Assembly: GCF_009741825.1 (NCBI RefSeq)
Contig: NZ_WPCA01000006.1
Location: 1-45,761 of the forward strand
Direction: 5' to 3'
Length of the DNA stretch: 45,761 bases
Source: Halapricum sp. CBA1109
Lineage (GTDB): Archaea; Halobacteriota; Halobacteria; Halobacteriales; Haloarculaceae
Below the pieces are notes generated by a model. That model saw only the letters and a program-made list of their open reading frames with translations. It did no database searches and was not told where the DNA came from. Below are positions 2,769 to 42,892 of the stretch, one piece after another. A program made the translations under genes and the position numbers. Within the stretch, counting starts at the first letter, position 1. Every line of letters starts with the position of its first letter.

Positions 2769-3107
2769 GTGACAGAGTGGCGGGCGGCCCTCGAAGACGC
2801 CGACGAACTCACCCCCGAGGTAGTCGAGACGCTGACCGACGTCCACGGCTCCCGGGGGGTCCGGGCCGTCGAGGCCGTCGCCGAGGGACGGGTCAAACAG
2901 TACAACGACTTCACGGTCGTCGTCGGCCACGAGGAGGAGTACATCGTCGAGGACGAGGGCTGTACCTGCAAGGACGCCGAGTACAACCTCGACGCCGAGG
3001 ACCCCGACCAGTTGTGCTGGCACGCGCTCGCGGTGGCCGTCGCCGTCGCCATCGACGCCGTCGACGACCACGATATGTTCTACGCCGAGGTCCGGGAGTT
3101 CATCTGA
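2769..3107 (+). CDS. Small SWIM zinc-finger protein
   Basis: 112 residues from a GTG at 2769. No ATG precedes the conserved region, and a longer open frame upstream runs antisense through trm1 and is not credible. The C-terminal half holds a SWIM-type site: CTC in EGCTCKDAEYN, then CWH about 15 residues later, giving the C-x-C...C-x-H zinc pattern. SWIM domains bind DNA or protein. The N-terminal half (about residues 1-40) is acidic and helical with no recognised motif. Its end overlaps the convergent histidine kinase stop by 8 bases. Family assignment is good; the partner is unknown. Confidence 0.78.
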   Translation: MTEWRAALEDADELTPEVVETLTDVHGSRGVRAVEAVAEGRVKQYNDFTVVVGHEEEYIVEDEGCTCKDAEYNLDAEDPDQLCWHALAVAVAVAIDAVDDHDMFYAEVREFI

Positions 3108-14261: not shown

Positions 14262-14353
14262 ATCTATCCGTCCGTCACTGTCGCATATGTGCTTTTATAT
14301 CGGTTCGGGGGAGAACAGAACGCTCATAATCCGGCCGTCCGGGACATCACAGT

Positions 14354-15552
14354 ATGAGTACATATCGTCGCCGGTTCGAGGGGGTCACCGGCGGGTATCT
14401 CCGGCCGGAACACGTCGCCATCTTCCTGGCGGCCGTGCTGGCCCGGGGGCTGTGGTGGCTGCAGGTGGGAACGATATTCGGCGGTGACGCTCCGCGGTAC
14501 ATCAACTGGTGTACCGAGTTCTCTCTGGGGACGCTGTTCGGGACCCGCGCTATCGTCTACTCGGGGTACTGGCTGCCGTACTGTGGCTGGCTCAACCTCT
14601 CGGGCGGCTGGATAGACGGTTGGATCGGCGTCCAACTCCTGCTGTCGGCGCTGACCTGCGTCGTCGTCTACGAGACGGGCCGGTACCTGCTGGGGAACAC
14701 GGCCGGACTGGTCGCCGGCGGCCTGTTCGTTCTCCAGTGGCAGGTGTTCCGGTGGTTCGTCCGCCCCCAATCGGAATTTATGATGGCGTTCGTCTTCGCC
14801 GTCGCGATGTGGCGGCTCGTCCACTACCACACGACGCCGACGACTCGGAATCGGCTCCTCGCGCTCGCGTCGCTGGGCCTCGTCGCCATCGTCCGCCCCA
14901 ACGGCCTGCCGATCGTCTTCGGCTACCTCGTCTGGGACTTCTTCCCGGAGGACAGCGCCCGCCGCCTCGGACTCTTTTTCTCCTCGAAGGTCAACCTCGC
15001 CATCGCCGGCGTCATCGTCTCGGGCATCGCCTACCGGCTGTACTTCGGGTGGTCCCGCGGCTCCGGCTCTATCCTCGTCCACTGGCGCGACGGCATCATC
15101 GTCACGCCCGAGCGGGTCGTCTACGAGTACACGCCCGCCGCCGCCGACTCGATACTGGAGTTTTTTCGTCGTCAACCTCCCGCACGTCCTCGTCATCGTC
15201 TTCCTCCGGGCCGTGTGGTTCTTCTCACCGGTGTTCCCGACGTGGTCGACCGGGCACATGATCCAGACCGGGCTCACGCTGACGCCGCTTTTTGATCGGT
15301 GCCGCGCTGGGCATCTACACCGCCGCGAGACACGACCGCGACCTGCTGATCCTCTGGGGGACGCCCCTCGTGATGATGGTCGTCACCGCGATGGGGACGT
15401 GGGTCGCGGGGTGGCGCAACTTCCTCGGCCCGGCGGCCGTCGTCTACGCGCTGTTTACCGGGTACTACGTCGCGCGACTCGACCCCCTCCCGCTCGGGAA
15501 CCCGCTGGATCGGTTCCGCTCGGACCCGGTGAGTGACGATTCACAAGCCTGA
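14354..15552 (+). CDS. GT39/PMT-like multi-membrane glycosyltransferase (frame broken at two T-runs)
   Basis: Restored length is 398 residues with about nine hydrophobic helices. The first extracytoplasmic loop has IFGGDAPRYINW, the position of the catalytic Asp of lipid-phosphate-sugar-dependent transferases, and the gene is short for the family. As given, the frame breaks twice. Removing one T from the six-T run at 15161-15166 continues LEFFVVNLPHVLVIVF, and removing one T from the run at 15289-15293 continues LTLTPLLIGAALGIYTAAR to the stop at 15552. Both breaks are T-run lengthenings, typical of sequencing error. It lies 27 bases upstream of the sulfatase start, so the two are likely cotranscribed. 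Confidence 0.75.
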
Positions 15553-15579
15553 TAATCCGAGTCGGTGATGGACCACTCA

Positions 15580-16686
15580 ATGGACGACATCATCTTCGTC
15601 ACCGCCGACTCCGTGCGGTACGACTATATCGACGCTATGGAGTACCTCTCGTCGTTCGACGTCCTCGAGGGCGTGACGGCGGCCCACTACACGCGGCCGA
15701 GCCTCGCCAGCATCCACGCCTCGACGTTCAGTTCGGTGCTGACCGGCCACGTCGAACAGCCCACTCTCGCCCAGTCGCTGTCCGAGGCCGGCTACACCAC
15801 GCTGGGGCTCTCGCCCAACCCCAACACCGACGCAGCCTTCGGGTTCGCCGACGGCTTCGACCGCTACGACAGCTTCATCGAACCCGGCAACCGCGGCTCC
15901 AGCCTCCGGCAGTACCTCGCGAAGTTCGACCTCCTGCGCCGTGTCTACTACAAGTTCTACCCGCCACACGCAAAGAGCGAGGACCGCCCGACCGACCGCG
16001 AAGTCGTCGAGCAGGCCATCGAGTGGTTCAACGAGGCCGAGTCCCCGCGATTCCTCTGGATCCACCTTATGGAGACCCACCGCCCCTACGGCGCCGGCGA
16101 CGACGCCATCTCGAAGGAACTCGACCAGAAGGCCTTCTTCAAACCGACCAAGCTCACCGACGCCGAGCGCGAGGAGATAGAGACGAAGTACCGGGACTCG
16201 CTGGCCCGGGCCGACGAGAACGTCCGATACCTCCGCGAACAGGTCGACAGCGACCCGGCGCTGGTGTTCACCGCCGACCACGGCGAGGGCTTCGGCGACG
16301 AGGGCTACTACTTCCACCAGCCCCAACTCCGCCGCGTCGACGACTGCCTCATCGACGTGCCCGTCATCTTCGACGGCATCGACGTCGAGGAGGGGCCGCT
16401 GAGTCTGCTGGACCTCACGCCGACGATGGCCGCCCACGGCGGCGGCACCGTCGAGGACCGGTGGCTCGGCAACAATCTCTTGGAGGAGACCACCGACACG
16501 GCCGTCACCGTCGCGCCGTGGCACGAGCAGGCCACCGTCGCGTGGCAGGACTTCGAGAACAAACTGATCAGCCACGACGCCGACGTCACCTTCGAAGGGA
16601 GCGACACCTCGACCGACGCCGCCGACGAGGAGGAGGTCCCCGAGGACCTCAAAGAGACGATGCGGGACCTCGGCTATCTGAAGTAG
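15580..16686 (+). CDS. Sulfatase-family protein (alkaline phosphatase superfamily)
   Basis: 368 residues from ATG 15580, which is 11 bases after a GGTGAT ribosome-binding stretch; an ATG at 15568 inside that stretch is less likely. Metal site 1 is IIFVTADSVRYDY; the nucleophile region is HYTRPSLASIHAS, with Ser or Thr in place of the formylglycine Cys; LWIHLMETHRPYG and VFTADHGEGFGDEGYYFHQ give metal site 2. It ends LKETMRDLGYLK. No export signal is seen. Sulfatase-like enzymes in haloarchaeal glycan clusters may act as hydrolases or as phospho-group transferases; the sequence does not settle which. Confidence 0.82.
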   Translation: MDDIIFVTADSVRYDYIDAMEYLSSFDVLEGVTAAHYTRPSLASIHASTFSSVLTGHVEQPTLAQSLSEAGYTTLGLSPNPNTDAAFGFADGFDRYDSFIEPGNRGSSLRQYLAKFDLLRRVYYKFYPPHAKSEDRPTDREVVEQAIEWFNEAESPRFLWIHLMETHRPYGAGDDAISKELDQKAFFKPTKLTDAEREEIETKYRDSLARADENVRYLREQVDSDPALVFTADHGEGFGDEGYYFHQPQLRRVDDCLIDVPVIFDGIDVEEGPLSLLDLTPTMAAHGGGTVEDRWLGNNLLEETTDTAVTVAPWHEQATVAWQDFENKLISHDADVTFEGSDTSTDAADEEEVPEDLKETMRDLGYLK

Positions 16687-16736
16687 GTCGGCCGACAAAC
16701 ACACGACACAAGTAGGCCGACGCGGTACCCCGAGGT

Positions 16737-17585
16737 ATGCCATCGGTCCCGGCGGTGCTCTCGGTCGATCTGGAGTACTTCCAGCACACGCCCGCCTACC
16801 GGAGCGCCGCGGGGACCACCGACCGCCCGACTGTCGGCCGCGAGGCCGTCGACGACATCCTCGACGCTCTCGACTCCGCCGACGCCGACGCCACCTTCTT
16901 CACCGTCTCGGAGATACTCGACTCGACGCCCGACGCCGTCGACGCCGTCGCCGACGCCGGCCACGAGATAGGTTCTCACACCCACTCACACCACCACCTC
17001 TCGGAGCTGTCGGCCGACCGCCGGCGCGAGGAACTGGCGACCTCCCGGGAGCGACTCGAAGCCGCGACCGGCCAGTCAGTCGACGGCTTTCGCGCGCCGT
17101 CGTTCGACATCGCCGACGACCACTTCGGGACGCTCGCGGCGACGGGCTACGCCTACGACTCCAGCATCGTCCCGTGTCGGTCGATTCCGGGGTGGTACGG
17201 CGGGGAGTACGACCTCAAGCGGCCGGCGGCCGCGACGGCCGTCGACCCCGACGCGCCGCCGACCCTCGCCGAACTCCCGGTCGCCGTGATGCCCGGTCTG
17301 GGTCTGCCGCTGACGGGCACGTGGATCCGGTTTTTCGGCGTCTCCTACACCATCCTCGGGATGCGTCTGCTCGCCCGCCGTGGCATCCCGCCGGTGCTGT
17401 ACATCCACCCGTGGGAACTGGCCGACCTGCCCGCCGTCGAGGGCGTTCCAAAGCGGGTGTACGTCCGGTCGGGTGCGTACATGCGGCGGGCGCTGCGGGC
17501 AATCCTCGAGCAGGACTTCGAGTTCGTCACCGCCCGGACAGTCGTCGCGGACCGGACGCTGTACGACGGAGGGCCGCCGCCGTGA
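16737..17585 (+). CDS. NodB-type polysaccharide deacetylase
   Basis: 282 residues. Motif 1 is LSVDLEYFQ, with Asp-Leu-Glu instead of the usual Asp-Asp; motif 2 HTHSHHHLSEL supplies the two metal-binding His; motif 3 DGFRAPSFDI gives the Arg; YDSSIVP follows; and the final motif is LYIHPWEL with the catalytic His. The family removes N-acetyl groups from sugar polymers or lipid-linked sugars. There is no signal peptide, so it probably acts on a cytoplasmic precursor. Its TGA shares bases with the GTG start of the next gene (17582), indicating translational coupling. Confidence 0.87.
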   Translation: MPSVPAVLSVDLEYFQHTPAYRSAAGTTDRPTVGREAVDDILDALDSADADATFFTVSEILDSTPDAVDAVADAGHEIGSHTHSHHHLSELSADRRREELATSRERLEAATGQSVDGFRAPSFDIADDHFGTLAATGYAYDSSIVPCRSIPGWYGGEYDLKRPAAATAVDPDAPPTLAELPVAVMPGLGLPLTGTWIRFFGVSYTILGMRLLARRGIPPVLYIHPWELADLPAVEGVPKRVYVRSGAYMRRALRAILEQDFEFVTARTVVADRTLYDGGPPP

Positions 17586-18616
17586 ACGACCGACTGAAAC
17601 GCGCCGTCGTCCTCGGGGCACAGGCCGCGTTCGCGCTCGGGGCGCTGGCGTACGTCCTCGCCCAGATAGACCTCGAACGGGCGGGCCGGCAGTTGCTCAC
17701 CGTCGATCCGCTCGTCGTCGCGGCCGTCCTCGCCGTGACCACGCTGGAGTTTGTCACTCGGTTCTCGATGTGGCACGCGCTGTTGTACGGCCTCGACCGC
17801 GTGGCCTTCCGGACGAGCGCGACGGTCGATCTGGTCATCAAGTTCGTCAACCACGTCCTCCCGTCGAAGGCCTCGGGGCACTCGGTCGCGCCGCTGGTCG
17901 TCCGCCACTACACGGGCGTCGACTGGACCGACGCCGTGACAGTGGCCGGCCTGAACACCGGGCTGTACGCGGCGCTGTACGGCGTCGTCTCGCTCGCCGG
18001 CCTCGTCCTGTTCGCCACGGCGCTCCCGGGCGGCATCGCCGTCGTCGTCGCCCTCTCGACGGCCGCCTACCTCGCCGCCGGCGTCCTCGTGTTGCTCGCC
18101 GGTCGCCGCCTCGAAGCGGCTGGTCGGCTGTTCGGCACGCTCGAAGGCCTCTTCTCCCGAGTCCCCCGAATCGGCGACCGACTGGCCGGACTGGTCGGGA
18201 AGCTCCCGACGTTCACCGCGGAGTCGGCGGCGACGTTCCGGGACCTCTCCTCCCGTCCCGCCGTCGTGCTCCCGTACGCCCTCGGCTGGGTCGGGACGCT
18301 GGCGCTCGCGCCGGGAATCAGGGTGTGGCTGTTGCTCGACGCCCTCGGCGGCGGATTCTCCCCGGCGCTTTTGTTGCCGGTCGCGCTCGTGACGGCCTAC
18401 AGCGTGACGATACTGCCAGTCACGCCCGGGGGCGTCGGCGTCGCGGAGGCCTCGGCGACGCTCGTCCTCACCGCCCTCGGCGTCGCCCCGGAGGTGGCTG
18501 GCGTCGTCGTGTTGCTCGACCGAGCGTTCGGCGTCTACCTCCCGGCGCTGTTCGGGTGGGTGCCGTTCGCGAGCCTCGACCTCCCGGCGCTGCTCTCCCG
18601 TGAATCCGAGGGGTGA
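17582..18616 (+). CDS. UPF0104 / LPG-synthase-TM-like flippase-type membrane protein
   Basis: 344 residues from GTG 17582, overlapping the deacetylase stop by four bases. Eight or so hydrophobic helices are visible. The conserved pieces FVNHVLPSKASGHSVAPLVVRHYTG, near residue 90-110, and LPVTPGGVGVAEASATLVL, near 280-300, are the two hallmark loops of the lysylphosphatidylglycerol-synthase transmembrane (UPF0104) family, without the cytoplasmic aminoacyl-transfer domain. In archaea this domain is also found joined to glycosyltransferases of the Agl type, so a role in moving or positioning a lipid-linked sugar is plausible. Confidence 0.82.
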   Translation: MNDRLKRAVVLGAQAAFALGALAYVLAQIDLERAGRQLLTVDPLVVAAVLAVTTLEFVTRFSMWHALLYGLDRVAFRTSATVDLVIKFVNHVLPSKASGHSVAPLVVRHYTGVDWTDAVTVAGLNTGLYAALYGVVSLAGLVLFATALPGGIAVVVALSTAAYLAAGVLVLLAGRRLEAAGRLFGTLEGLFSRVPRIGDRLAGLVGKLPTFTAESAATFRDLSSRPAVVLPYALGWVGTLALAPGIRVWLLLDALGGGFSPALLLPVALVTAYSVTILPVTPGGVGVAEASATLVLTALGVAPEVAGVVVLLDRAFGVYLPALFGWVPFASLDLPALLSRESEG

Positions 18617-18693
18617 GGGCGGCTCCCGGTCGCGCGAGACGCAGTGTATCGCGGGGTTTATCTTTTGTGACGTGATACGTTCGGCACGAATCG

Positions 18694-19758
18694 ATGACGG
18701 CAGCAGCGACCGTACTTCAGACGGGGGGACTCAACAGCCCGCAGTTGACGGCGATTCTCGTCGGCGTCGCCGCGCTCACGCTGTTGTGGGGACTCGAACG
18801 ATACCGGACGACGTTCTCCCGGACGGAACTCGGTGTCGCCCTCGTCCTCGCCGCCGGCATCACCGTCCTCGCCGTCGCTCCGGACGTGTTCGCGGCCGTC
18901 GGTGACCTCCTCTCTATCGACCAGCGCCCGCTGGCCGTCGCGCTGGTCGCCAACGTCACCCTGACGGCCCTCGTGTTGTTGCTGTTCGCCAAGACCCGCG
19001 ACAACCAACTCACCATCGCCGAACTGACCCGGAGCCTCACCGTCGAGCAGGCTCCCGAGGGCGAGGACATCGATGACCCGTCGCTGTTCGTCATCATCCC
19101 CGCGTACAACGAGGCGATGCAGGTCGCCGACGTCGTCGCCGAACTCCCGGAGACCATCGACAGCTACCACGTGACGCCGGTCGTCGTCTCCGACGGGTCG
19201 ACCGACGGCACCGCCCGCGCGGCCGCCGAGACCCGCGCTATCGTCGTCGAACACCCGATCAATCAGGGTCAAGGCGGCGCGCTCCAGACCGGCTTCGACA
19301 TCGCCAGCGAACACGGCGCGGACATCGTCGTCACGATGGACGCCGACGGCCAACACCCCGCCGAGCAACTGGGCGATATGATCGCTCCCATCGCCGACGA
19401 CGAGGCCGACTACGTCGTCGGCTCCCGCTACATCGGCACCGACCGCTCGGGCAACGGCCTCACCCGCCAGTCCGGCATCCGCGTGTTCACCGCGCTCATC
19501 AACCTCGTCGCCAAGATGGACATCACCGACTGCACGAACGGCTACCGCGCCATCCGTGGGTCCTCGCTCCGGCAGTTGACCCTCACCGAGGAGCGCTTTT
19601 CGGCCCCCGAACTCCTGATCGAGGCCCGCAAGAAGGGGCTCCGCATCACCGAGGTTCCCGTCACCATCGAACAGCGCGAGACCGGCGAGACGAAAAAGCC
19701 CCAGTTGGGCTACGCCATCGGTCTCGCCCGGACGATATTCGTCACCTGGCTCAGATAA
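18694..19758 (+). CDS. DUF2304-GT2 fusion, dolichyl-phosphate-sugar synthase-like
   Basis: 354 residues. The first ~110 residues are three hydrophobic helices of the DUF2304 type. A GT-A domain follows: FVIIPAYNEAMQVADVV (about 130), VVVSDGSTDGTA, then DIVVTMDADGQHP with the D-x-D metal site, GSRYIGTDRSG, and CTNGYRAIRGSS near the acceptor loop. It most resembles dolichol-phosphate mannosyl/glucosyltransferases that move a sugar from a nucleotide donor to a lipid phosphate on the inner membrane face. Its product would suit the GT39-like enzymes around it. The next gene begins 12 bases downstream. Confidence 0.87.
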   Translation: MTAAATVLQTGGLNSPQLTAILVGVAALTLLWGLERYRTTFSRTELGVALVLAAGITVLAVAPDVFAAVGDLLSIDQRPLAVALVANVTLTALVLLLFAKTRDNQLTIAELTRSLTVEQAPEGEDIDDPSLFVIIPAYNEAMQVADVVAELPETIDSYHVTPVVVSDGSTDGTARAAAETRAIVVEHPINQGQGGALQTGFDIASEHGADIVVTMDADGQHPAEQLGDMIAPIADDEADYVVGSRYIGTDRSGNGLTRQSGIRVFTALINLVAKMDITDCTNGYRAIRGSSLRQLTLTEERFSAPELLIEARKKGLRITEVPVTIEQRETGETKKPQLGYAIGLARTIFVTWLR

Positions 19759-19770
19759 CCCCTCCAAACC

Positions 19771-21896
19771 GTGATCCGCGAACCACTCGCCCGCGCTCGC
19801 CGACAGATCTTCGAGGACCTGCGGGAGGACCCGTACCTCCTGTACATCCTGCTGGCGGCGACCGTGCTGATGACCTTCTGGATCTGGCACCGCCTCCCGA
19901 ACTTCGCGACCCGCGACGAGCGCTGGCGGGTCGTCGACTCGATGGAGATAGTCGCCTTCTGGATCGAGGATCCCACGACCACCGGTATCCGCGACGGCAT
20001 CGACTTCTGGCGGCCCTACGGCGCGACGCTGTACCTCTACGGGCTCGTCACCGCACCGATCATCGCCTTCGCGGCGGTGACCAGTGGGATCGGCGTCTTC
20101 AGCGGCGCCCGCGGGATGCGCTTCGCTCCTGACCACTTCGCCCACTGGCAGGCCGTGCCCGGGTGGGTCTGGTTCAGCAGCGTCCTCGCGGCGCGGCTGG
20201 TCAACGCCGCCCTCGCCGTCGCCTCGGTGTACGTTGTCTACCGCATCGGAACGCTGATCCGCGACCGCGCGACCGGCCGCCTCGCCGCCGTGATGCTCTC
20301 GGTCACGTGGGCCGTCATCGTCCTCGCCCACGAGGCCGGCGAGGACATCCCCGCGATGTTCTGCTTTCTCGTCGTGGTGTATCTGGCGCTCCGGTACGTC
20401 CAGACCGGATCGCTGTGGACCTACCTGCAGGCCTGCGTGATCGGCGGCCTCGCCATCGCGTTCAAGATCAGCGCCGGCCTCGGCGCGGTGTTGCTCGGCG
20501 TCGCCTACCTCGTCCGGATGCGCCGGGAGTACCGCGACCCCGACCTCTCCGTCTCCGGTCGGCTCCCCGGCGTCCCCGAACTCCTCGCGCTCTCGGGGCT
20601 CGCCGTCGGCGTCCCCAAACTCCTCCTGCTCTCGGACATCGGCGTCGGCGTCCTCGGCCCCCTCTCGCCCGTCTTCGACGTCTGGGTCGGGACCGCGCTG
20701 TTGATCCTCGCCTTCGCCCTCCTGCTCCGGCGCCGGGCCGACGACCGCCTGCACTCGGGCGTCCCCGACTGGCTCCCGCTCTCGATACCGGCGATGGGGC
20801 CCCGACTTCGACGTGCGGTCGCGCTCGCCCGCCCCCGCCTGCTCGTTTTCGGCGCGACGACCGGGTTCGTCTTCGTCGTCCTCGGGTTCCCCCACACCTT
20901 CGCCGTCGGTCCGGAGATAATCGTCCAGCGGCTCACCCGCGGCGTCGGTACGAAGGGGAGCCAACACGGCTGGCTCGTCCGTCCCACGTCGTGGTGGATC
21001 GCCCGGAGCTACCTCAACGGCCTCGGCTGGCCGATGGCTGTCGCCACCGTCGGCGGCGTCCTCGCCACTATCCCGCGACTCCGCGAGCGCTCCTTCGAGA
21101 GCGAGGGCGTCACCCTCCTGCTGTCGGGCGTCCTCGTGATGGCCGCCATCGTCTCGGCGTGGACGTACGTCCGCACCCACCACATCCTGCTTTTGTTCCC
21201 GCTGGTCGTGTTGCTCACCGCCGTCGCCCTCCAGCGCCTCCGGGCCGCCCGCCCGCCGGTCGGCCGCGCCGTGATGGCCGTCCTGCTCGTTTCGACGGCC
21301 GTCTACGCCGGCGTCGGCACCTTCGCTACGCCACCCAACCCCGCGACCAGTCGGCCGCCTACCTCCAGTCGAACCTCGGCCCCAACGGCACCGTCGAGAC
21401 CTACTCGTGGGACTCTCAGGAGGCCGGCGTCCCCCACGACGCGACCATCTACCGGCCGAGCTACCGCACCACCGGGATGGAGGATATGTCCCGTTCGCGG
21501 TGGCTCCAGAACGTCGAACGGCGCTGTCCCGACTACATCGCCCTGAACTACCAGCGGGCGTACATCTGGCTCGCGCCGGACAACCACAGCGACCTCTCCT
21601 CGCGCTGGACCGGCTACGGCGACGCCGCCTACGTCCACGACCTGCTCAGCGACGACGGCGAGTACCTCACCGAGAACGCTCCCTACCCCTACGAGGTGGC
21701 CGAGTCCTTCGGCCCGAAGCCGTTCTACATCCGCAACGGCGGCGAGCCAATCGACCAGACGTGGAACGCCGTCCGCGCCGGCATCTTCCCCCGGACCATC
21801 CAGTACGGCGACCCACAGGACTTCGGCGTCTACAACCACGTGACGGTCCTCGAACGCACCGGGGAGTGCTCCGTCGGGAACGAATCGTCCGAGTGA
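19771..21896 (+). CDS. GT39/PMT-like membrane glycosyltransferase (frame broken near 21325)
   Basis: Restored length 708 residues from GTG 19771. About eleven hydrophobic helices fill residues 25-520. DERWRVVDSMEIVAFWIEDP in the first large loop is the likely donor-binding site. HEAGEDIPAMFCFLVVVYLAL is the GT39-type loop with acidic residues. As given the frame fails at 21325-21326, where one base seems missing (TTC-G-C-TAC). In the next frame the protein continues YATQPRDQSAAYLQSNL as a ~190-residue soluble domain with aromatic-rich strands, to the stop at 21896. It probably takes lipid-phosphate sugar and transfers it outside the cell. It lies just after the GT2 gene, whose product may supply it. 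Confidence 0.76.
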
Positions 21897-32742: not shown

Positions 32743-32790
32743 CACCGGCCCACACATTCTTGTCTCGTGGGCGTGTACCCTTCTAGCCAG

Positions 32791-34902
32791 ATGCGTGAGG
32801 ACCCCGCCGGTACACCGACGACTGTCCCGGCCCACGTGCTCGATGCGGACGGGCACCTCCGGTTCGTCAACGACGCGTGGGTCGCGTTCACGGGCTACGA
32901 CCGCGAGTCGGTGCTGGGCGACCCGTTCGGGGCGGTCCTGACTGAGGGGTCGAGTGCCCGGTTGCAGACCCAACTCGCCGGGGACGAGTTGGCCGCCCGG
33001 ACGCTGTTCGTCCGCCGGGCCGACGACGAGGCGGTGCCGGTCGTCCACGACGGCGCGGCCGAACAGGCCGCCGACGGGACGCGCTATCACTGCCAGTGTC
33101 GGCCCGAATCGTCCGCCGACAGCACGGAGACGACGGCGCTGCTCCGCGCTCTGGTCGACGGCCTCCCGGTCGGTGTCCTCGCGGAGACGACGGGTCGGGA
33201 GGTGCTGGCGGTCAACGACCCCCTGCTCTCGATGTTCGACGCCGACGGGACGCCGGCGGATGTCGTGGGGGCCGACTGCGCCGAACTCGCCGCCGAGAGC
33301 GCCGACCAGTTCGTCGACCCCGAGGGCTTCCTCGACGGGATCGAGTCGGCTATCGACGGCGGCGAGCCGGTCGCCTGCGAGCGTCTCGTCCGCGAGGACG
33401 GCCGGGTCTTCGAGCGCAGTTACTTCCCCGTCTCGCTGCCGGCGGGCCCCGGTCACCTCTGGATATACGACGACGTGACCGAGCGCTCACAGCGCGAGGC
33501 CGACCTCCGGACCTACGAACGACTGTTCGAGGTCGCACCGGTCGGCGTGTTCCGGACGACGACCGGCGGGTCGGTGCTGTCGGTCAACCCGAAGATGGCG
33601 TCGATACTGGGCTACGAGGACGTGGATACGCTGTTGTCGAGCTACGACGACCTGGCGACGGAGCTGTACACCGACCCGGGCTCCCGCGAGACGTTCCTCG
33701 ACCGGTTGGAGTCGGTCGGCCTCGTCGAGGACTTCGTCTATCAGGCTATCGACGCCGACGGCGAGCGGATCTGGCTGTCGATGAACGCCCGACTGCTGCC
33801 CGAGACGGTCGACGGCGAGCAGGTCATCACCGGCTTCACGCGGGACGTGACCGAGCGCAGGACCCGCGAGCGCGACCTCCGGACCTACCGCGAGATAGTC
33901 GAACGGCTCCGGGACCCGATTATGCTGCAGGACTGTACGGGTCAGTATGTCCTCGCCAACGAGGCGCTTGCGTCGTACACGGACCGCTCGCCGGCCGAAC
34001 TGGTCGGGGTCGACGAGCGGGCGGTTCTCGACGCGACGACGGCCGCGGAGATAGACCGGATCAAGAAACGCGTCCTGCGGACCGAACAGCCCGTCGAGGC
34101 GACGATCAGGCCGACTTTCGACGGCGGCGGGACGCGGTCGTTCACGACCCTCCGGTTCCCCTACTACGACACAGCAGGAGAACTCGCCGGGACGGTCGCC
34201 CTCTGGCGGGACGTGACCGACCAGCAACAGCGCGAACAGCAACTGGCAGTGTTGGGCCGTATCCTCCGGCACAACCTGCGGAACGCGATGACCGTCGTCC
34301 AGGGGCAGGCCGAGATGATAGCGGCCGGGACCGCTGCGGACCCGGCCGCGGCCGCGACGACCATCCTCGACCGTATCGACGAGTTGATGGCTCTCGTCAA
34401 CAAGGAACAGACAGTCACGACCGTCCTCCGGGAGTCGACGGGTCGGCGCGCCCGGGACGTGACGGCCCTTTTGCGTTCGGCCGTCGAGTCGACGCGGACT
34501 CGCTTCCAGTCAGCGACCGTCGAAATGTCCGCCCCGGACTGCGCTCGGGCGCTGGTGTGTGACCGGTTCGAACGGGCGCTGATCGAACTGCTGGACAACG
34601 CCTTCAGACACACCGACACCGACACCGTGGCGGCCGAGGTGTCCGTCGCCGACGACCACGTCGTGGTCTCGATACGCGACCGCGGGCCGGGGATGGCGAC
34701 CATCGAACGGGACGTCCTCCGTGGCGAGGCCAACATCACGCCGCTGTCACACAGCACCGGCGTCGGCCTGTGGCTGGTCCAGTGGCTGGTCAACCTCTCT
34801 GACGGCACCGTCTCCGTCGCCGACAACGATCCGACCGGGACCGTGGTGACGGTTCGAGTCCCGCGGGCCGACGGTGGAAACGATTTTGAGGGTGTCCGCT
34901 GA
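32791..34902 (+). CDS. Multi-PAS sensor histidine kinase
   Basis: 703 residues from ATG 32791 (MREDPAGTPTT); an upstream GTG at 32767 is in frame but less likely. Four PAS-like repeats are visible at about 15-110 (LDADGHLRFVNDAWVAFTGYDRESV), 115-240, 240-370 (FRTTTGGSVLSVNPKMASILGYEDV) and 372-485, with DDVTERS / RDVTERR / RDVTDQQ ends. The HisKA helix has LGRILRHNLRNAMTVVQGQAEM (phospho-His about 492), and the ATPase has IELLDNAFRHT, DRGPGM and STGVGLWLVQWLV, all intact, unlike the kinase at 3100. No membrane helix, so it is a cytoplasmic sensor. No response regulator is adjacent. Confidence 0.88.
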   Translation: MREDPAGTPTTVPAHVLDADGHLRFVNDAWVAFTGYDRESVLGDPFGAVLTEGSSARLQTQLAGDELAARTLFVRRADDEAVPVVHDGAAEQAADGTRYHCQCRPESSADSTETTALLRALVDGLPVGVLAETTGREVLAVNDPLLSMFDADGTPADVVGADCAELAAESADQFVDPEGFLDGIESAIDGGEPVACERLVREDGRVFERSYFPVSLPAGPGHLWIYDDVTERSQREADLRTYERLFEVAPVGVFRTTTGGSVLSVNPKMASILGYEDVDTLLSSYDDLATELYTDPGSRETFLDRLESVGLVEDFVYQAIDADGERIWLSMNARLLPETVDGEQVITGFTRDVTERRTRERDLRTYREIVERLRDPIMLQDCTGQYVLANEALASYTDRSPAELVGVDERAVLDATTAAEIDRIKKRVLRTEQPVEATIRPTFDGGGTRSFTTLRFPYYDTAGELAGTVALWRDVTDQQQREQQLAVLGRILRHNLRNAMTVVQGQAEMIAAGTAADPAAAATTILDRIDELMALVNKEQTVTTVLRESTGRRARDVTALLRSAVESTRTRFQSATVEMSAPDCARALVCDRFERALIELLDNAFRHTDTDTVAAEVSVADDHVVVSIRDRGPGMATIERDVLRGEANITPLSHSTGVGLWLVQWLVNLSDGTVSVADNDPTGTVVTVRVPRADGGNDFEGVR

Positions 34903-34912
34903 ACGACACGCT

Positions 34913-35902
34913 ATGAAACGGGTGACGGTGCTCGCGGGACTGTTGGCCGGACTGCTCGTGCTGTCGCTCGTCCTGTTGCGCGCGGTGTTCGGGACCATAT
35001 TCTTCGCCATCACCGTCGCGTACGTCCTCAACCCGGTCCGCACGCGCCTCGTCGACCACGGGCTGTCCGCCCGCATCGCGGCGACGATAGCGACCGGCCT
35101 CGCGTTCGTCGGTGCCGCGCTGGTGGTGTTGCCCCTCGTCGTCGTCCTCTACATCCGACGGCAGGACTTGGTCGATTTCGTCCGGACGGTACCCGCCGAG
35201 GTAGTCGTCGAACTCGGCGGCGTCCGGTACCCGATAGAACTGGCGACGTACACCGACCGCGTCACCTCGGCGCTGGGGTCGCTCGCGCTCGATATCGCCC
35301 GGGCCGCGCCGGCGTTGGCGTTCAAGCTCTTCCTGTTCGTCCTGCTGGTGTACGCGCTGTTGATCCGGCCCGACGAGATAAGCGCCGCGCTGTTGCGGCC
35401 GGTGCCCCGCGAGTACCACGACGTCGTTATGTCGATGCACCGGCGGGTGAAATCGGCGCTGTACGCCATCTACGTCCTGCAGGCGGCGACGGCCTTTGGC
35501 ACCTTCCTCCTCGCGTACGTCTTCTTCACCATCTTCGGCTACGACGCCGCGTTCTCGCTGTCAGTCATCAGCGGCATCCTGCAGTTCATCCCTATCGTCG
35601 GGCCGAGCATCGTTATCCTCGCGCTCGCGGCGTTCGAGGTGACGCTCGGCAACACCGTGACCGCACTGCTGGTCGCCGCCGTCGGCCTGTTTTTCGTCGG
35701 GTTCCTCCCGGACGCGGTGATCCGGACCCAGTTGGCCTCTCTCACCGCCGAGATGTCCGGCAGCCTCTACTTCATCGGGTTCACCGGCGGTATTCTGAGC
35801 ATCGGTATCGTCGGCGTCATCGCCGGGCCGGTGCTGGTGGCGATGCTCGCCGAGGCCGGGCAGTTGCTCGGTAGCGAGCGCCGGGCGGACTACTCGGACT
35901 GA
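34913..35902 (+). CDS. AI-2E family transporter
   Basis: 329 residues from ATG 34913. Two N-terminal helices, a third near 65-85, a soluble segment (about 85-140), then four or five helices. Family marks: FGTIFFAITVAYVLNPVRTRLVDHG, AISAALLRPVPREYHDVV-like loop before the third helix group, and GILQFIPIVGPSIVILALAAFEV (about 215-237) with FLPDAVIRTQL. The family was named for autoinducer-2 export but includes Na+/H+ antiporters; the substrate is open. It starts 11 bases after the kinase stop, suggesting cotranscription with the sensor. Confidence 0.84.
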   Translation: MKRVTVLAGLLAGLLVLSLVLLRAVFGTIFFAITVAYVLNPVRTRLVDHGLSARIAATIATGLAFVGAALVVLPLVVVLYIRRQDLVDFVRTVPAEVVVELGGVRYPIELATYTDRVTSALGSLALDIARAAPALAFKLFLFVLLVYALLIRPDEISAALLRPVPREYHDVVMSMHRRVKSALYAIYVLQAATAFGTFLLAYVFFTIFGYDAAFSLSVISGILQFIPIVGPSIVILALAAFEVTLGNTVTALLVAAVGLFFVGFLPDAVIRTQLASLTAEMSGSLYFIGFTGGILSIGIVGVIAGPVLVAMLAEAGQLLGSERRADYSD

Positions 35903-36690
35903 CCGGTCGAAAGCGGCCGCCCCGCGGCCTCCCACTCGGTGAGGCTCCCCTCGTAGAAGCCCACGTCCTCGTATCCCAGATGCCGCAGGACGACGTAGGT
36001 GTGGCTGATCCGCCGGGCGGTGTTACAGTAGAGGACGACCCGCCGGTCTGGCGTGATGCCGCGTTCGGCGAGTACCGCGCCCAGTTCGTCCCGCGGGCGG
36101 AGCCCGCGGTTCTCGTCGTCGACCGCTTCCCGCCAGTCGAACCTGACCGCGCCGGGGATGTGGCCCTCCTCGAACTCCCAGTCCTCGCGGGTGTCGACGA
36201 TGGTCGCGTCCGTGTCGATGGCCGCGGCGACGCCCTCGATGTCGACCAGCGGCGTCTCGGCGGGCGGGTCGACGGTGTAGTCGGTCGGCTCTCGCTCGGG
36301 CGCGTCGCTCTCGACCGCTCGCTCGCGCTGCCACGCGCTGAAGTCCCCGTCAAGCAGGTGGAGTCTCTCGGGGTCGTGACCCAGCAACTCCGCGGTCACC
36401 AGAAACCGCGCGGCGAAGACGCCGTGGGTGTCGTCGTAGGCGACGACGTGGTCCTCCGGCGCGATACCGGCCTCGCTCAACAGTCCCGCCCACGTCTCCC
36501 GGTCGGGGAGCATCCCCTCGCCCTCGCCGGACTCGACGGCGTGCTCGCTCGCCCGGAAGGTGTCGAAGGGAACCGAGACGGCCGTCGGTAGGTGCCCGAT
36601 GCCGCTGTACTCCCAGTCCTCCCGCGTGTCGACCAGCGCCACCTCGCCCAACCGGTCGGCCAGCCACGACCGCGTCACGATGTCCGTCAT
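35890..36690 (-). CDS. Two-domain sulfurtransferase (rhodanese family)
   Basis: 266 residues from ATG 36690. Two rhodanese domains: domain 1 (about 5-125) has DTREDWEYSGIGHLPTAVSVP but lacks Cys in its active loop (YDDTHGVFAAR). Domain 2 (about 145-260) has VDTREDWEFEEGHIPGAV and the active loop VLYCNTARRISHTY with catalytic Cys near 220. It transfers sulfane sulfur from thiosulfate or mercaptopyruvate to a thiol or cyanide. Its last 13 bases overlap the convergent AI-2E gene. A second, related gene lies divergently at 36930. Confidence 0.87.
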   Translation of the reverse strand: MTDIVTRSWLADRLGEVALVDTREDWEYSGIGHLPTAVSVPFDTFRASEHAVESGEGEGMLPDRETWAGLLSEAGIAPEDHVVAYDDTHGVFAARFLVTAELLGHDPERLHLLDGDFSAWQRERAVESDAPEREPTDYTVDPPAETPLVDIEGVAAAIDTDATIVDTREDWEFEEGHIPGAVRFDWREAVDDENRGLRPRDELGAVLAERGITPDRRVVLYCNTARRISHTYVVLRHLGYEDVGFYEGSLTEWEAAGRPLSTGQSE

Positions 36691-36896
36691 ACAGCCTCGT
36701 TCCCGGCGCGTTCGCTTGAACCGTGTGATTTCGCGTCTCACAGCTACTGACAATACTTGCCAGTACCCGCCCCGGTCGTGTCCGTCCGGTGGCCGACCGC
36801 CCCTCGCCGTCCGGCTTTCCGAGCGGGGGCGCCGACAGTACCGGCAACAATTGCTTCGGCTGGAGAACAGTGGCGTATGATGCCCTGACTGGAGCC

Positions 36897-36902: not shown

Positions 36903-36929
36903 TGAACGGGGGAAGTACGGATGGATGCA

Positions 36930-37790
36930 ATGAGCGACTACGCAAACGACGTTCTCGTGTCGGCGGACTACGTCGAGGAGCACCTCGACGAGTTCCAGAG
37001 CGACGACCCGGCCCATCGGCTGGTCGAGGTCGACGTCGACACCGAGGCGTACGACGAGAGCCACGCCCCCGGTGCCATCGGCTTCAACTGGGAGACACAG
37101 CTACAAGACCAGACAGAGCGGGACATCCTCGACAAGGCGGAGTTCGAGGAGTTGCTGGGCAGTCACGGCATCTCCGAGGACTCGACGGTCGTCCTCTACG
37201 GTGACAACGCCAACTGGTTCGCGGCCTACACCTACTGGCAGTTCAAGTACTACGGTCACGACGACGTGAAGCTGCTCGACGGCGGCCGCGAGTACTGGAT
37301 CGAGAACGACTACACCGTCACCGACGAGGTGCCCGACTTTTCGCCGGTCGAGTACACCGCCTCCGGCCCGCGCGAGTCCATCCGCGCCTACCGCGACGAC
37401 GTCGAGAACGCCATCGAGAAGGGCCTGCCGCTGGTCGACGTCCGCTCGCCCGAGGAGTACTCCGGCGAGGTCCTCGCACCGCCGGGCCTCCAGGAGACCG
37501 CCCAGCGCGGCGGCCACATCCCCGGCGCGTCCAACATCTCGTGGGCGGCCGTCACCAACGACGACGGCACCTTCAAGACCCGCGAGGAGATCGAGGAGCT
37601 GTACGCCGAGGAGGGCATCGACGGCGACGAGACGACCGTCGCCTACTGCCGCATCGGCGAGCGCTCCTCCGTCGCTTGGTTCGCCCTGCACGAACTCGCG
37701 GGCTACGACGACACCGTCAACTACGACGGCTCTTGGACGGAGTGGGGCAACCTCGTCGGCGCGCCCATCGAAAAGGGCTCGGGCGACTAA
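36930..37790 (+). CDS. Two-domain thiosulfate sulfurtransferase
   Basis: 286 residues from ATG 36930 (MSDYANDVLVSADYV); an ATG nine bases upstream is possible, but the TATA spacing fits 36930 better. Domain 1 (about 8-130) is inactive in form, with VVLYGDNANWFAAYTYWQF and no Cys. Domain 2 (about 155-280) has VDVRSPEEYSGEV, GHIPGASNISW and active loop AYCRIGERSS with catalytic Cys. It fits the SseA/TST type. It is homologous to the gene at 35890 but only distantly, so this is an old duplication, divergently arranged with 239 bases between. A hairpin at 37805-37832 follows. Confidence 0.9.
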   Translation: MSDYANDVLVSADYVEEHLDEFQSDDPAHRLVEVDVDTEAYDESHAPGAIGFNWETQLQDQTERDILDKAEFEELLGSHGISEDSTVVLYGDNANWFAAYTYWQFKYYGHDDVKLLDGGREYWIENDYTVTDEVPDFSPVEYTASGPRESIRAYRDDVENAIEKGLPLVDVRSPEEYSGEVLAPPGLQETAQRGGHIPGASNISWAAVTNDDGTFKTREEIEELYAEEGIDGDETTVAYCRIGERSSVAWFALHELAGYDDTVNYDGSWTEWGNLVGAPIEKGSGD

Positions 37791-39151: not shown

Positions 39152-39353
39152 CGATACCGGTAGTAAACAAATACTGATTAGTTACCGCGCCCGTCAGGCC
39201 CTATGTACGAGTAAACGTGCCCGCTCCCGATAGGTTGGGCCGGCTGATACAGACCGAGCATAAACAATACTATTTGGGCCGTCCGCATATCTAATAAACA
39301 ATTATGAATATATGCTCGGAAACCGTTCCCAACAGTAAGGAGATTTGTTTACA

Positions 39354-41884
39354 ATGGGAACGACCGACCTCCTCCGTCGGCTCCTCGGGCTAGGGCGGCC
39401 CGTCGAGACAGACGGCGGGACGGAACGGCGGACGCAGTCGGACCGGCCCGACAGCGACGCTCGGCGCTCCGAGACGGACCCGGAGACGGTCGAGCACCTG
39501 CGGGCCGAGTTACGGGAGACGCGCGAGGAACTCCAGTCGGTTCGCGACCAACGGGACAGCGCGCGTGCTCGGGCCGACAGCCTCGAAGCCGCAGTCGAGA
39601 CGGCGGCGGCGACGCTGGAACGGGCTGTCGACGGCGACCTGACGGTCAGGGTCGACGCCGACGGCGGCGAGTCGGTCGCCGACCTCGAGGCGGCCTGCAA
39701 CGACCTGCTGGCGGAGTGGTCGCGGTCGATAGAGCGCCTCCGGGAGTTCAGCGGGCAGGTCGAGGGGGCCACTGAACAGGTCTCGGACACCACCGAGACG
39801 GTCAGGACCCAGAGCCGCGCGGTCACCGAGTCGATCCGGGAGATCTCGCTGACGCCGACCGCCAACACGACCGCATCGAGGCGGTGTCCGACGAGGCCGA
39901 GGACCTCTCGGCGACCGTCGAGGAGGTCGCGGCCTCGGCCGACGAGGTGGCCCGCGCGGCCGAGGCCGCCGCCGAGAAGGCCCACTCCGGAAGCGACGCG
40001 GCGACGTCGGCGCTCGATGAACTCCACGCCATCGAGGAGCGGATGGAGGCGACCGTCGAGAGCGTCCAGTCGCTGACGGAGTCGGTCGCCGAGATAGCGT
40101 CCATCGTCGGGACTATCGACGACATCGCCCGCCAGACGAACATCCTCGCGCTGAACGCTTCGATCGAGGCCGCCCACGCCGACAGCGACGGCGACGGGTT
40201 CGCCGTCGTCGCCGACGAGGTCAAGGACCTCTCCGGACAGACCCAGTCGGCCTTAGAGGAGATAGAGCGGGCCATCGAACAGGTCCGCACGGAGGCCGAC
40301 GGGACGACCGAGGAGATACACCGGACCCGCGAGCAGGTCGCCGACGGCCGCGACACCATCGACGAGGCGCTGTCGGCCCTAGAGGAGATAGCGAGCGACG
40401 TCGAGTCCGTCTCCGAGCAGGTGACCGAGATCAGCCGCGCGACCGACTCACAGGCCGAGTCGACCCAGCAGGTCGCGGTGATGGCCGAGGAGGCCGGCGA
40501 CATCAGCGAGGCGACCGCCGAGACGGCCGAGGGCGTCGTCTCACAGGCCCGCGACCAGACCAGCGTCCTGACCGAGGTCCAGACGGCGACGACGACGCTG
40601 GCCGAACGGACCGAGACGCTCTCGTCGTCGCTGTCGACGTACGACACTTCGACACACACCGCGGACGCGGCGACGACCGTCGAGTTCTGGCACGCGATGA
40701 GCGGCGAGAAGGGACTGTTGCTGGAGACGCTGGCCCGGGAGTTCGAGTCCCAGTACGACCGGGACGTCTCCATCCGGCCGACGTCGAAGGGTAGCTACCG
40801 CGGGACGCTCAACGCGACGCTCGACGCCGTCGAGAACGGCCGGCCGCCGACGGTCGCACAGATCTTCGAGATCGGGACCAAGCGAGCGATGGACAGCGGC
40901 GGCTTCCGCCCCGTCGAGGACGTTCTCCCGAACGATTTCGACGCCGACGACATCCTCGCGCCGATCCGGTCGTACTACCGCTCGGACGGGCAGTTGTACT
41001 CGCTGCCGTTCAACGTCTCGATCCCGGTGTTCTGTTACAACCGGACGGCCTTCGAACGCGCGGGGCTGGACCCGGACCGCCCGCCCGAGACGTTCGACGC
41101 CGTCCGGGAGGCCGCCGAACGGATCGTCGAGGCGGGCGTCGCCGACGCCGGCATCACCTTCGCCAACTACTCGTGGTACGTCGAACAGTGGTTCGCCGAG
41201 GACGGCCAACCGCTGGTCGACCGCCGCAACGGCCGCGACGGCGACGCCACCGAGGCGTACTTCGACAGCGACACCGGCCACCGACTGTTCGAGTGGTGGG
41301 CTGACTTGGAGAACGACGGTCTCTATTACAACCCCGGAATCGAGGCTCGTGGCGCCGCGAAGTCGGCCTTCTTCGACGGCGAGGCCGCGATGTTGATCGG
41401 ATCGACCTCCTCGCTGACGGACATCCGTGACGGCGCCGAAGCGGCCGGGTTCGACCTCGGGACGGGACCGCTGCCCGTCGCCGACGAACGGCACGGCGTC
41501 GTCGTCGGCGGGGCGTCGCTGTGGGTGCCCGAGGACGTCCCCCGAAAGCAGCGACAGGTCGCCGGCGACTTCCTCGCGTGGCTGGCCCAACCGGCCCAGC
41601 AGGCCCGCTGGCACCGCGAAACAGGCTACTTCCCCATCCGTCACGACGCCGTCGACTCCCTGCGGGCCGAGGGCTGGTTCCGCGAGCACCCCCATCTGGA
41701 GTCGGCCATCCAGCAGTTACTCGACAGCGACGACACCGTCGCAACCACCGGTGCCCGTATCGGGCCGTTCGACACCGTCCGGACGCTCGTCGCCGAGAGC
41801 TACCTCGACGCCCGGGACAACGGCGTCGACGCGGCGCTGACTGACCTCGACCAGCAGGTCGAACGGCTCCTGACCGACTACTAG
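39354..41884 (+). CDS. Soluble methyl-accepting chemoreceptor fused to a UgpB-like binding domain (frame broken near 39849)
   Basis: Restored length 843 residues from ATG 39354, 11 bases after an AAGGAGA ribosome site. Residues about 45-90 are a coiled coil; 75-110 resemble a HAMP-like linker (LERAVDGDLTVRVDADGGES); about 130-430 form the MCP signalling hairpin with tip IDDIARQTNILALNASIEAA (about 255-275), followed by GDGFAVVADEVKDLS. One base is missing near 39848-39850; restored, it reads SIREIS-x-DADRQHDRIEAVSDE. From about 440 onward the protein is a full UgpB-type periplasmic-binding domain: TVEFWHAMSGEKGLLLETLA, SKGSYRGTLNATLDA, LPFNVSIPVFCYNRTAFERAGLDP, GGASLWVPEDVPR and WHRETGYFPIRHDA. 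UgpB binds glycerol-3-phosphate or its diesters. No signal peptide, lipobox or membrane helix is seen, so both parts are cytoplasmic. Confidence 0.83.
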
Positions 41885-41921
41885 CCGGGCCGTATTTGAG
41901 CGTTGGCCGCCTACTGTGCCT

Positions 41922-42299
41922 GTGTCCGAGACAGTCCCGCTCCGGGTGTTGCTCGGCGAGGACGGCCCGGAGCGACGCCTCGACGTCGAACCCGGGACCG
42001 TCCTCAGAGACGCCCTCCTCGACGCCGGTCTCTCCCCGCACGGCCGCTACGCCCGGCGGCTCAACTGCGGCGGGCGCGGCCTCTGTGCGACCTGTGGCGT
42101 CCGGTTCGGGACAGACGACCCCGACCCCGACCACTGGCACGACGAGTTGGCCGACCGCTTTGGCTACCCGCGACTGTCCTGTCAGCTACGAGTGACCGAC
42201 CCGGCGACGGTCTGCCTCCTCCCCGAAAAGCGCGTGTGGGGCGCCGGGAGTAGCCCGGCGCAAGCAGTATGTCCCTCGCCGCCGAACTGCCGACAGTGA
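41922..42299 (+). CDS. Plant-type [2Fe-2S] ferredoxin
   Basis: 125 residues from GTG 41922; a GTG six bases earlier is equally usable. Ligand cysteines in the pattern C-x5-C-x2-C...C: RLNCGGRGLCATCGVRFG (about 47-57) and RLSCQLRV (about 87). The N-terminal strand LRVLLGEDGPERRLDVEPG matches the ferredoxin beta-grasp. It carries electrons in the cytoplasm; its partner is unknown. It lies 37 bases after the chemoreceptor stop. Its stop lies 28 bases inside the start of yigZ, so the two are translationally coupled, or yigZ starts later. Confidence 0.85.
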   Translation: MSETVPLRVLLGEDGPERRLDVEPGTVLRDALLDAGLSPHGRYARRLNCGGRGLCATCGVRFGTDDPDPDHWHDELADRFGYPRLSCQLRVTDPATVCLLPEKRVWGAGSSPAQAVCPSPPNCRQ

Positions 42300-42892
42300 C
42301 CGACACCTACCGGACCGTCGCCGGCCGCGGGCAGGCCCGTTTCGAGGTGCGTGGCTCGGAGTTTATAGGCCACGTCGCGCCCGCGACCGACCGGGAGAGC
42401 GCCGAGTCGTTCGTCGACTCGGTCCGTGCGGAGTACGCCGACGCGACCCACAACGTCCCGGCCTATCGCGTGCGGACCGACCCGCTCCGGGAGTACGAAA
42501 GCGACGACGGCGAACCCTCCGGTAGCGCCGGAAAACCGGCGCTGAACGTCCTCCAGCAACGCGATGTCGAGAACGTCGTCGCCGTCGTCACCCGCTACTA
42601 CGGCGGGACGAACCTCGGTGTCGGCGGCCTCGCCCGGGCGTACTCCCGCGCGGTCAAGGAGGGCGTCGACGACGCCGGCGTCGTCACCGAACGACCCCAC
42701 GAACGGCTCTCGATCACGACCGAGTACGACGACAGCGGCACCGTCCGGTCCGTCATCGAGAGCGAGGGCGTCGCGTTCGAGGCCGACTACGGCGAGACTG
42801 TCGCCTTCGACGTCCGGGTCCCCGTCGCCGAGGCCGAGGCCCTCCGCGAGCGACTCAGAAGCGCGACCAGCGGCCGCGTCGACATCGAGTGA
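42269..42892 (+). CDS. YigZ/IMPACT (UPF0029) family protein
   Basis: 207 residues from ATG 42269; GTG 42296 is an alternative that would remove most of the overlap with the ferredoxin. Hallmarks: VRGSEFIGHVAPA, THNVPAYRVR, DDGEPSGSAGKPALNVL (about 78-94) and VVTRYYGGTNLGVGGLARAYS (about 106-126). A C-terminal DUF1949-like domain starts near 140 (ERLSITTEYDDSGTVRSVI). YigZ proteins are linked to translation or amino-acid stress; the biochemistry is unclear. The stop abuts the large inverted repeat at 42892. Confidence 0.88.
   Translation: MSLAAELPTVTDTYRTVAGRGQARFEVRGSEFIGHVAPATDRESAESFVDSVRAEYADATHNVPAYRVRTDPLREYESDDGEPSGSAGKPALNVLQQRDVENVVAVVTRYYGGTNLGVGGLARAYSRAVKEGVDDAGVVTERPHERLSITTEYDDSGTVRSVIESEGVAFEADYGETVAFDVRVPVAEAEALRERLRSATSGRVDIE

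Follow-up and report, generated by a model that had tools for sequence, protein, structure and literature searches.

We describe a family of haloarchaeal proteins that couples a chemoreceptor signaling module to a solute-binding domain of the UgpB type, as exemplified by a gene (39354-41884, forward strand) in a 45,761-nucleotide stretch of Halapricum sp. CBA1109 (contig NZ_WPCA01000006.1, hereinafter the window). Judging by domain architecture, predicted ligand pocket and gene neighborhoods, the product is probably a soluble chemoreceptor for metabolism-based taxis to glycerol, a major food source for haloarchaea in brines, with its C-terminal UgpB domain sensing glycerol 3-phosphate in the cytoplasm. 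A cytosolic sensor of this kind had been suggested in an earlier note made from the letters of the window alone, and the suggestion now gains support from two sources, namely the location of the receptor gene in glycerol (glp) loci in 26 of 56 genomes and the retention of eight of nine UgpB ligand residues in all 68 fused proteins compared.

The gene is composed of the following parts, where MCP denotes the methyl-accepting chemotaxis protein domain:

39354-41884, forward strand: the whole MCP-UgpB fusion gene, with the N-terminal part in one frame and the rest in another.
39354..39848, forward strand: the receptor N-terminal part, i.e., a coiled coil, a HAMP-like stretch (~39615-39746, bounds by eye) and the start of the signaling helix.
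39846..39852 (~39848), forward strand: a single reading-frame change, net one base, located by tblastn with four relatives.
39995..40495, forward strand: the MCP signaling domain with the conserved hairpin tip (PF00015, 1.9e-39, residues 38-204 of the 666-residue frame).
40496..40666, forward strand: a linker and the end of the C-terminal helix, without a membrane segment (by pLDDT and hydropathy).
40667..41884, forward strand: the UgpB-type solute-binding domain up to the stop codon (by SBP_bac_8, NCBIfam and Foldseek).

Both signature domains are contained in a single open frame of 666 codons (39884-41884), in which Pfam recovers MCPsignal followed by SBP_bac_8 (PF13416, 2.7e-40, residues 283-604) and SBP_bac_1 (PF01547, 6.1e-31). 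This bears out the proposed succession of an MCP and a full UgpB-type domain on one chain, and it rules out the candidate interpretation, foreseen in the earlier note, of two genes parted by a true stop. The two frames of the gene were searched separately rather than as the joined 843-residue chain. The piece encoded by 39354..39848 aligns with the receptors of all four same-genus relatives at 50-58% identity; Pfam finds no HAMP match in it, and in relatives the HAMP score is above the cut-off in one case (L115, 26.6 bits vs 25) and below it in another (L043, 19.4). The hairpin tip of the MCP domain is invariant or nearly so across 35 aligned fused proteins.

The nearest solved relatives of the binding domain are UgpB proteins, both by sequence (6x84 and 4aq4, E ~4e-62; 9lff, 1.6e-54) and by fold in Foldseek searches (6x84 with E 1.9e-34, TM 0.91 on the target and rmsd 1.8; also 4aq4 and 9lff). 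An AlphaFold2 model of the 666-residue frame has a mean pLDDT of 78, with values mostly of 80-97 in the binding domain and below 50 at residues 196-261; hence, the geometry of the hairpin relative to the binding domain is not settled by the model. The available text of a study on the Phaeobacter UgpB reports that it was solved with glycerol 1- and 3-phosphate, that it binds both, and that the ligand residues are Tyr64, Glu88, Ser143, Trp188, Trp191, Ser266, Gly303, Tyr342 and Arg393 (PMC12718374). Alignment to this protein places the predicted ligand-residue codons of the window in 40796..41782 on the forward strand:

40796, forward strand: Tyr codon, aligned to Phaeobacter Tyr64.
40868, forward strand: Glu codon, aligned to Glu88.
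41018, forward strand: Ser codon, aligned to Ser143.
41165, forward strand: Asn codon, aligned to Trp188 (Trp in bacterial UgpB).
41174, forward strand: Trp codon, aligned to Trp191.
41402, forward strand: Ser codon, aligned to Ser266.
41510, forward strand: Gly codon, aligned to Gly303.
41627, forward strand: Tyr codon, aligned to Tyr342.
41780, forward strand: Arg codon, aligned to Arg393.

Across the 68 non-redundant fused proteins, which come from 12 genera, the pocket reads Y-E-S-N-W-S-G-Y-R in 56 and Y-E-S-T-W-S-G-Y-R in the other 12, and is thus identical at eight of nine positions in all of them, a far cry from the wholesale loss of ligand residues that the earlier note had considered. 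These eight invariant columns compare with 69 of 406 columns overall (hypergeometric 3.8e-6, with three rows partly trimmed). Retention in the fused proteins is not automatic, as two of 13 free (i.e., unfused) haloarchaeal relatives have lost both Glu88 and Arg393. The loss of Trp188 was considered as a change specific to the fusion and rejected, since all 13 free relatives have Asn at this position; fused and free versions do differ nearby, e.g., at Phaeobacter position 189, which is Tyr in 68/68 fused proteins and His in 11/13 free ones.

Several features bear on the cellular location. By 19-residue hydropathy (no dedicated predictor was used) we saw neither an export signal nor a membrane helix in the window's protein, the Kyte-Doolittle mean reaching at most 0.43 for the N-terminal piece and at most 0.96 for the 666-residue one. 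These low values, together with an in-frame stop codon that begins 18 bases upstream of the ATG, argue against a signal peptide or membrane helix upstream of the start. The same absence of a peak above 1.6 holds for 64 of the 68 fused proteins, whereas an N-terminal hydrophobic peak of 1.83-2.37, located before HAMP and MCP, is present in four (L015, L017, L020 and L120, from genera g44 and g38), and two of their kin (L025 and L031) show weaker N-terminal peaks of 1.28 and 1.31. This segment is perhaps a hairpin anchor that would leave the UgpB domain inside. Thus, the description of the receptor as entirely cytoplasmic stands for the window's protein, given its low hydropathy, and does not extend to these four relatives. 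In none of the 68 does a membrane segment lie between MCP and UgpB, the 110 residues before the UgpB start peaking at 0.95 or less. Contact of the MCP tip with CheA has to occur in the cytoplasm, and no such segment separates the domains; we therefore infer a cytoplasmic location for the UgpB domain as well, even though domains of this kind ordinarily function outside the cell. In this respect the fused proteins are unlike their free haloarchaeal relatives, which carry a twin-arginine motif in 13/13 and a lipobox in 11/13 cases.

A match running through both parts is present in 57 of 292 sampled haloarchaeal genomes, a count that includes the source genome, two partial matches (contig ends or truncated) and one genome with a shortened frame (G188). 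Within the genus, the fusion is found in five of six genomes, being absent from G165. A non-exhaustive scan of named genomes with six short peptide patterns of the query identified 29 fused loci among 72, all haloarchaeal and including Halapricum, Haloarcula, Halomicrobium and Halorubrum, while in a phylum sample of 294 genomes (also not exhaustive) nine matches span both parts, all in the order seen in the window. In bacteria, the long open frames at three loci (L089, L091 and L097) code, by Pfam, for the binding domain only, with no fusion. In a tree of 61 binding domains, built by a quick method with SH-aLRT support only, the 35 fused representatives constitute one side of a branch with support of 99, adjoining free haloarchaeal proteins. 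By this tree, the MCP-UgpB fusion is one clade with a single origin in haloarchaea. The order of signal domain first and sensor last, which the earlier note had called unusual, is not as strange as it may seem, given that an MCP hairpin has its two termini at one end of the bundle; it is also not a chance event, as it recurs in the 57 genomes. Soluble chemoreceptors such as TlpD likewise have the sensor behind the signaling hairpin, but there it is a zinc-binding CZB domain and not a solute-binding protein.

The flanks of the 56 other fused genomes, in which genes were found with reference proteins and named by NCBIfam (GlpA, GlpB, GlpC, GlpK, HPr, PTS enzyme I and DhaL), show the receptor gene alongside glycerol genes in 26 genomes from eight of the 12 genera. 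This position in the glp locus is new here, and it would be expected under metabolism-based taxis to glycerol. In 17 genomes (g3 and g5, Haloarcula-/Halomicrobium-type by named loci), glpABC is divergent upstream and glpK is next downstream on the same strand, at a distance of ~130-145 bases in 16 of them and 476 in G188. Six genomes (g44, g43 and g38) have the order glpK, membrane protein (MemP), Orc-like, receptor, ptsH; other arrangements are receptor, Orc-like, glpK, glpCBA (G268), a ptsH-ptsI-dhaL side only, at a contig end (G200), and a glpK 2.9 kb off on the other strand (G076). For the membrane protein encoded next to glpK, we found a match to a family that is predicted to comprise glycerol transporters in the available text of PMC3102087. 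We estimate the chance of glpK linkage per genome roughly as 0.6% with one glpK copy and 3% with five. CheA and GlpK are both present in 57/57 fused genomes, as compared to 183/235 and 199/235 of the others, respectively, with kinship ignored; however, as 256 of the 292 genomes have GlpK, its co-presence says little, and the placement of the receptor gene within the glp locus carries more weight. The source genome itself codes for a CheA (PF02895, contig C50), six PF01917 archaellin-family matches (three on C50) and GlpK. Separately, we observed a recurrent Orc1/Cdc6-like gene in the glp locus, adjacent to glpK, to the membrane protein gene or to the receptor gene (L115 11021-12232, L136 3988-5163 and their kin).

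These data are consistent with a mechanism in which glycerol would enter the cell and be converted by glycerol kinase (GlpK) to glycerol 3-phosphate in the cytoplasm, whereupon the UgpB domain would close on this product and transmit its closure to both the HAMP-like segment and the hairpin base of the MCP. The resulting hairpin movement would change CheA activity and with it archaellum switching, such that the cell would track glycerol through the metabolism of this compound rather than through binding outside the cell. What we infer here is the ligand, how the response is directed and that the window's copy yields a working protein. A broader evolutionary version, which we favor only by a little, posits that a copy of an ABC-transporter binding protein moved to the cytoplasm and was coupled to the chemotaxis array, which placed the archaellum under the control of the glycerol 3-phosphate pool that GlpK generates, with the receptor in the glp regulon reading catabolic flux and the g38/g44 lineage being membrane-tethered with the sensor inside.

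Several points weigh against glycerol 3-phosphate sensing. The glp linkage entails only four changes on the tree, and the 26 linked genomes hence represent far fewer independent events. No linkage is seen in 30 of the 56 fused genomes (nine of the 30 with a flank below 5 kb), i.e., in all four same-genus relatives, 17/17 of g17 (Halorubrum by named loci), 7/8 of g31 and two single genomes, and the window itself has no glp gene. In a control, free UgpB loci were near glpK in two of 11 cases; thus, linkage alone is no proof of sensing the GlpK product. The domain scores 245.8 bits against the NCBIfam UgpB model NF008211, below its equivalog cut-off of 411, and one of the two clamp tryptophans (Trp188) is replaced by Asn or Thr in the fused proteins. 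Finally, UgpB proteins in transport bind tightly; given that glycerol 3-phosphate may be abundant in the cytoplasm, a useful sensor would have to bind it less tightly.

Among the alternatives, the family might work as described with the window's copy decayed, leaving the strain without a complete receptor. With all four same-genus relatives as tblastn queries, the match ends at 39848 in one frame and restarts at 39848-39851 in another, with at most one residue between. As the matches abut there, a single frame change of net one base is indicated, and it lies in the N-terminal part of the MCP region, not at the MCP/UgpB junction; the four relatives read straight through without a break. Accordingly, the single chain of the earlier note is upheld at the junction and fails in the N-terminal part, where the frame changes at ~39848. 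In addition to this frame change, decay would be in keeping with the absence of the fusion from one of six same-genus genomes (G165), which implies that loss is tolerated. However, a single-base error is plausible in this source genome, a draft of 266 contigs that is 78.65% complete, and the conservation of both frames up to the break, the remaining 666 open codons and the whole pocket fit either an error or a very recent event. We therefore regard decay as unlikely, albeit a contender to be taken seriously. Two other MCP matches in the same genome (L002 and L007) each have an in-frame stop, and more frame or stop problems are possible in this draft.

A second alternative retains the cytosolic receptor but takes its natural ligand to be either glycerol 1-phosphate or else a glycerophosphodiester that arises in archaeal lipid turnover, making it a reporter of lipid or phosphate status. 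As the Phaeobacter UgpB binds glycerol 1-phosphate too, the ligand of the fused receptor could be this compound, on which archaeal lipids are built according to the available text of PMC12718374; moreover, the fold matches include a mycobacterial UgpB with glycerophosphocholine, and replacement of the Trp could make for a wider pocket. Against this, the linked genes glpK, glpABC, ptsH-ptsI and dhaL are on the catabolic side, though the flanks were not searched for lipid or phosphate genes, and we consider such a ligand improbable. Still less credence can be given to the notion that the UgpB domain is no longer a small-molecule sensor and instead docks to a glp enzyme or is a mere scaffold: solute-binding folds can bind proteins and the genomic context would fit any partner from the glp locus, but the eight ligand residues are invariant in 68/68 proteins from 12 genera. 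Lastly, an extracellular binding domain, reminiscent of the two-protein BasB-BasT and CosB-CosT systems and suggested by the export of the free relatives and the N-terminal hydrophobic segment of four fused proteins, is rejected as next to impossible, because all 68 lack a hydrophobic segment from MCP to UgpB, which puts both on the CheA side, and the segment found in the four exceptions is located ahead of HAMP and MCP.

As regards the neighborhood in the window, the receptor gene is followed after 32 bases by a 2Fe-2S ferredoxin-like gene (Fer2, 41916-42299, forward strand), a neighbor in two of the four same-genus relatives, and by a YigZ/IMPACT-like gene (42269-42892, forward strand; named by eye), which is kept beside the receptor in all four. 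The window has five exact TAAACAA sites, a number reached in none of 100 window shuffles, and four of them are at 39164-39351, in the 190 bases before the receptor; in the four same-genus relatives, the 250 bases that precede the receptor lack the motif. A promoter scan used a bacterial consensus and is little informative for this archaeal window. Elsewhere in the window are two divergent sulfurtransferase (rhodanese)-like genes, named by eye (35890-36753, reverse strand; 36921-37790, forward strand), two PAS-domain histidine kinases (3103-4968, reverse strand; 32767-34899, forward strand) and, at 12723-21543, closely spaced type I phosphodiesterase, sulfatase and PMT_2 mannosyltransferase-like genes that may form a cluster for surface glycans.

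The predicted glycerol 3-phosphate receptor can be likened to several known systems. Car (Htr11) of Halobacterium salinarum, a cytoplasmic arginine receptor in the available text of PMC3579733, is, by its description, similarly a soluble haloarchaeal chemoreceptor for an intracellular metabolite; it differs in its ligand, arginine as opposed to the predicted glycerol phosphate, and what is new in the present family is the UgpB-type domain. In BasB-BasT and CosB-CosT of the same organism a substrate-binding protein also feeds a chemoreceptor, but the same text describes separate, putatively periplasmic binding proteins and membrane receptors, in place of one chain without a membrane segment. 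The MCP-UgpB family thus joins Car-type cytoplasmic sensing and a binding-protein-fed receptor in one soluble chain. With the UgpB proteins of ABC transporters (Escherichia coli 4aq4, Phaeobacter 9lff) the fused domain shares its fold and eight of nine ligand residues, while differing in its lack of an export signal, its place behind an MCP, its score below the NCBIfam UgpB cut-off and one replaced clamp Trp, the last as in free haloarchaeal relatives. CheWS of Treponema denticola is likewise an array protein that monitors an intracellular metabolite, S-adenosylmethionine, but is, in the available text of PMC10653840, a CheW fusion with another ligand and not a receptor. Searches of the open literature yielded no title or abstract beginning that describes the MCP-UgpB family; subscription papers were outside this scope, so its absence from print is not established. 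The available portions of PMC3102087, PMC11962113, PMC3863723 and PMC5992828 make no mention of a chemoreceptor in a glycerol locus or of such a fusion.

Metabolism-based taxis has often been proposed, yet there are few receptors that directly sense a catabolic intermediate. The present family offers a named candidate ligand, a solved homolog with a mapped pocket, a gene in the matching catabolic operon and cultured genera (Haloarcula and Halomicrobium). If our proposal is true, the single haloarchaeal origin of the family would make it a case of an exported binding protein having been turned into an intracellular metabolite sensor.
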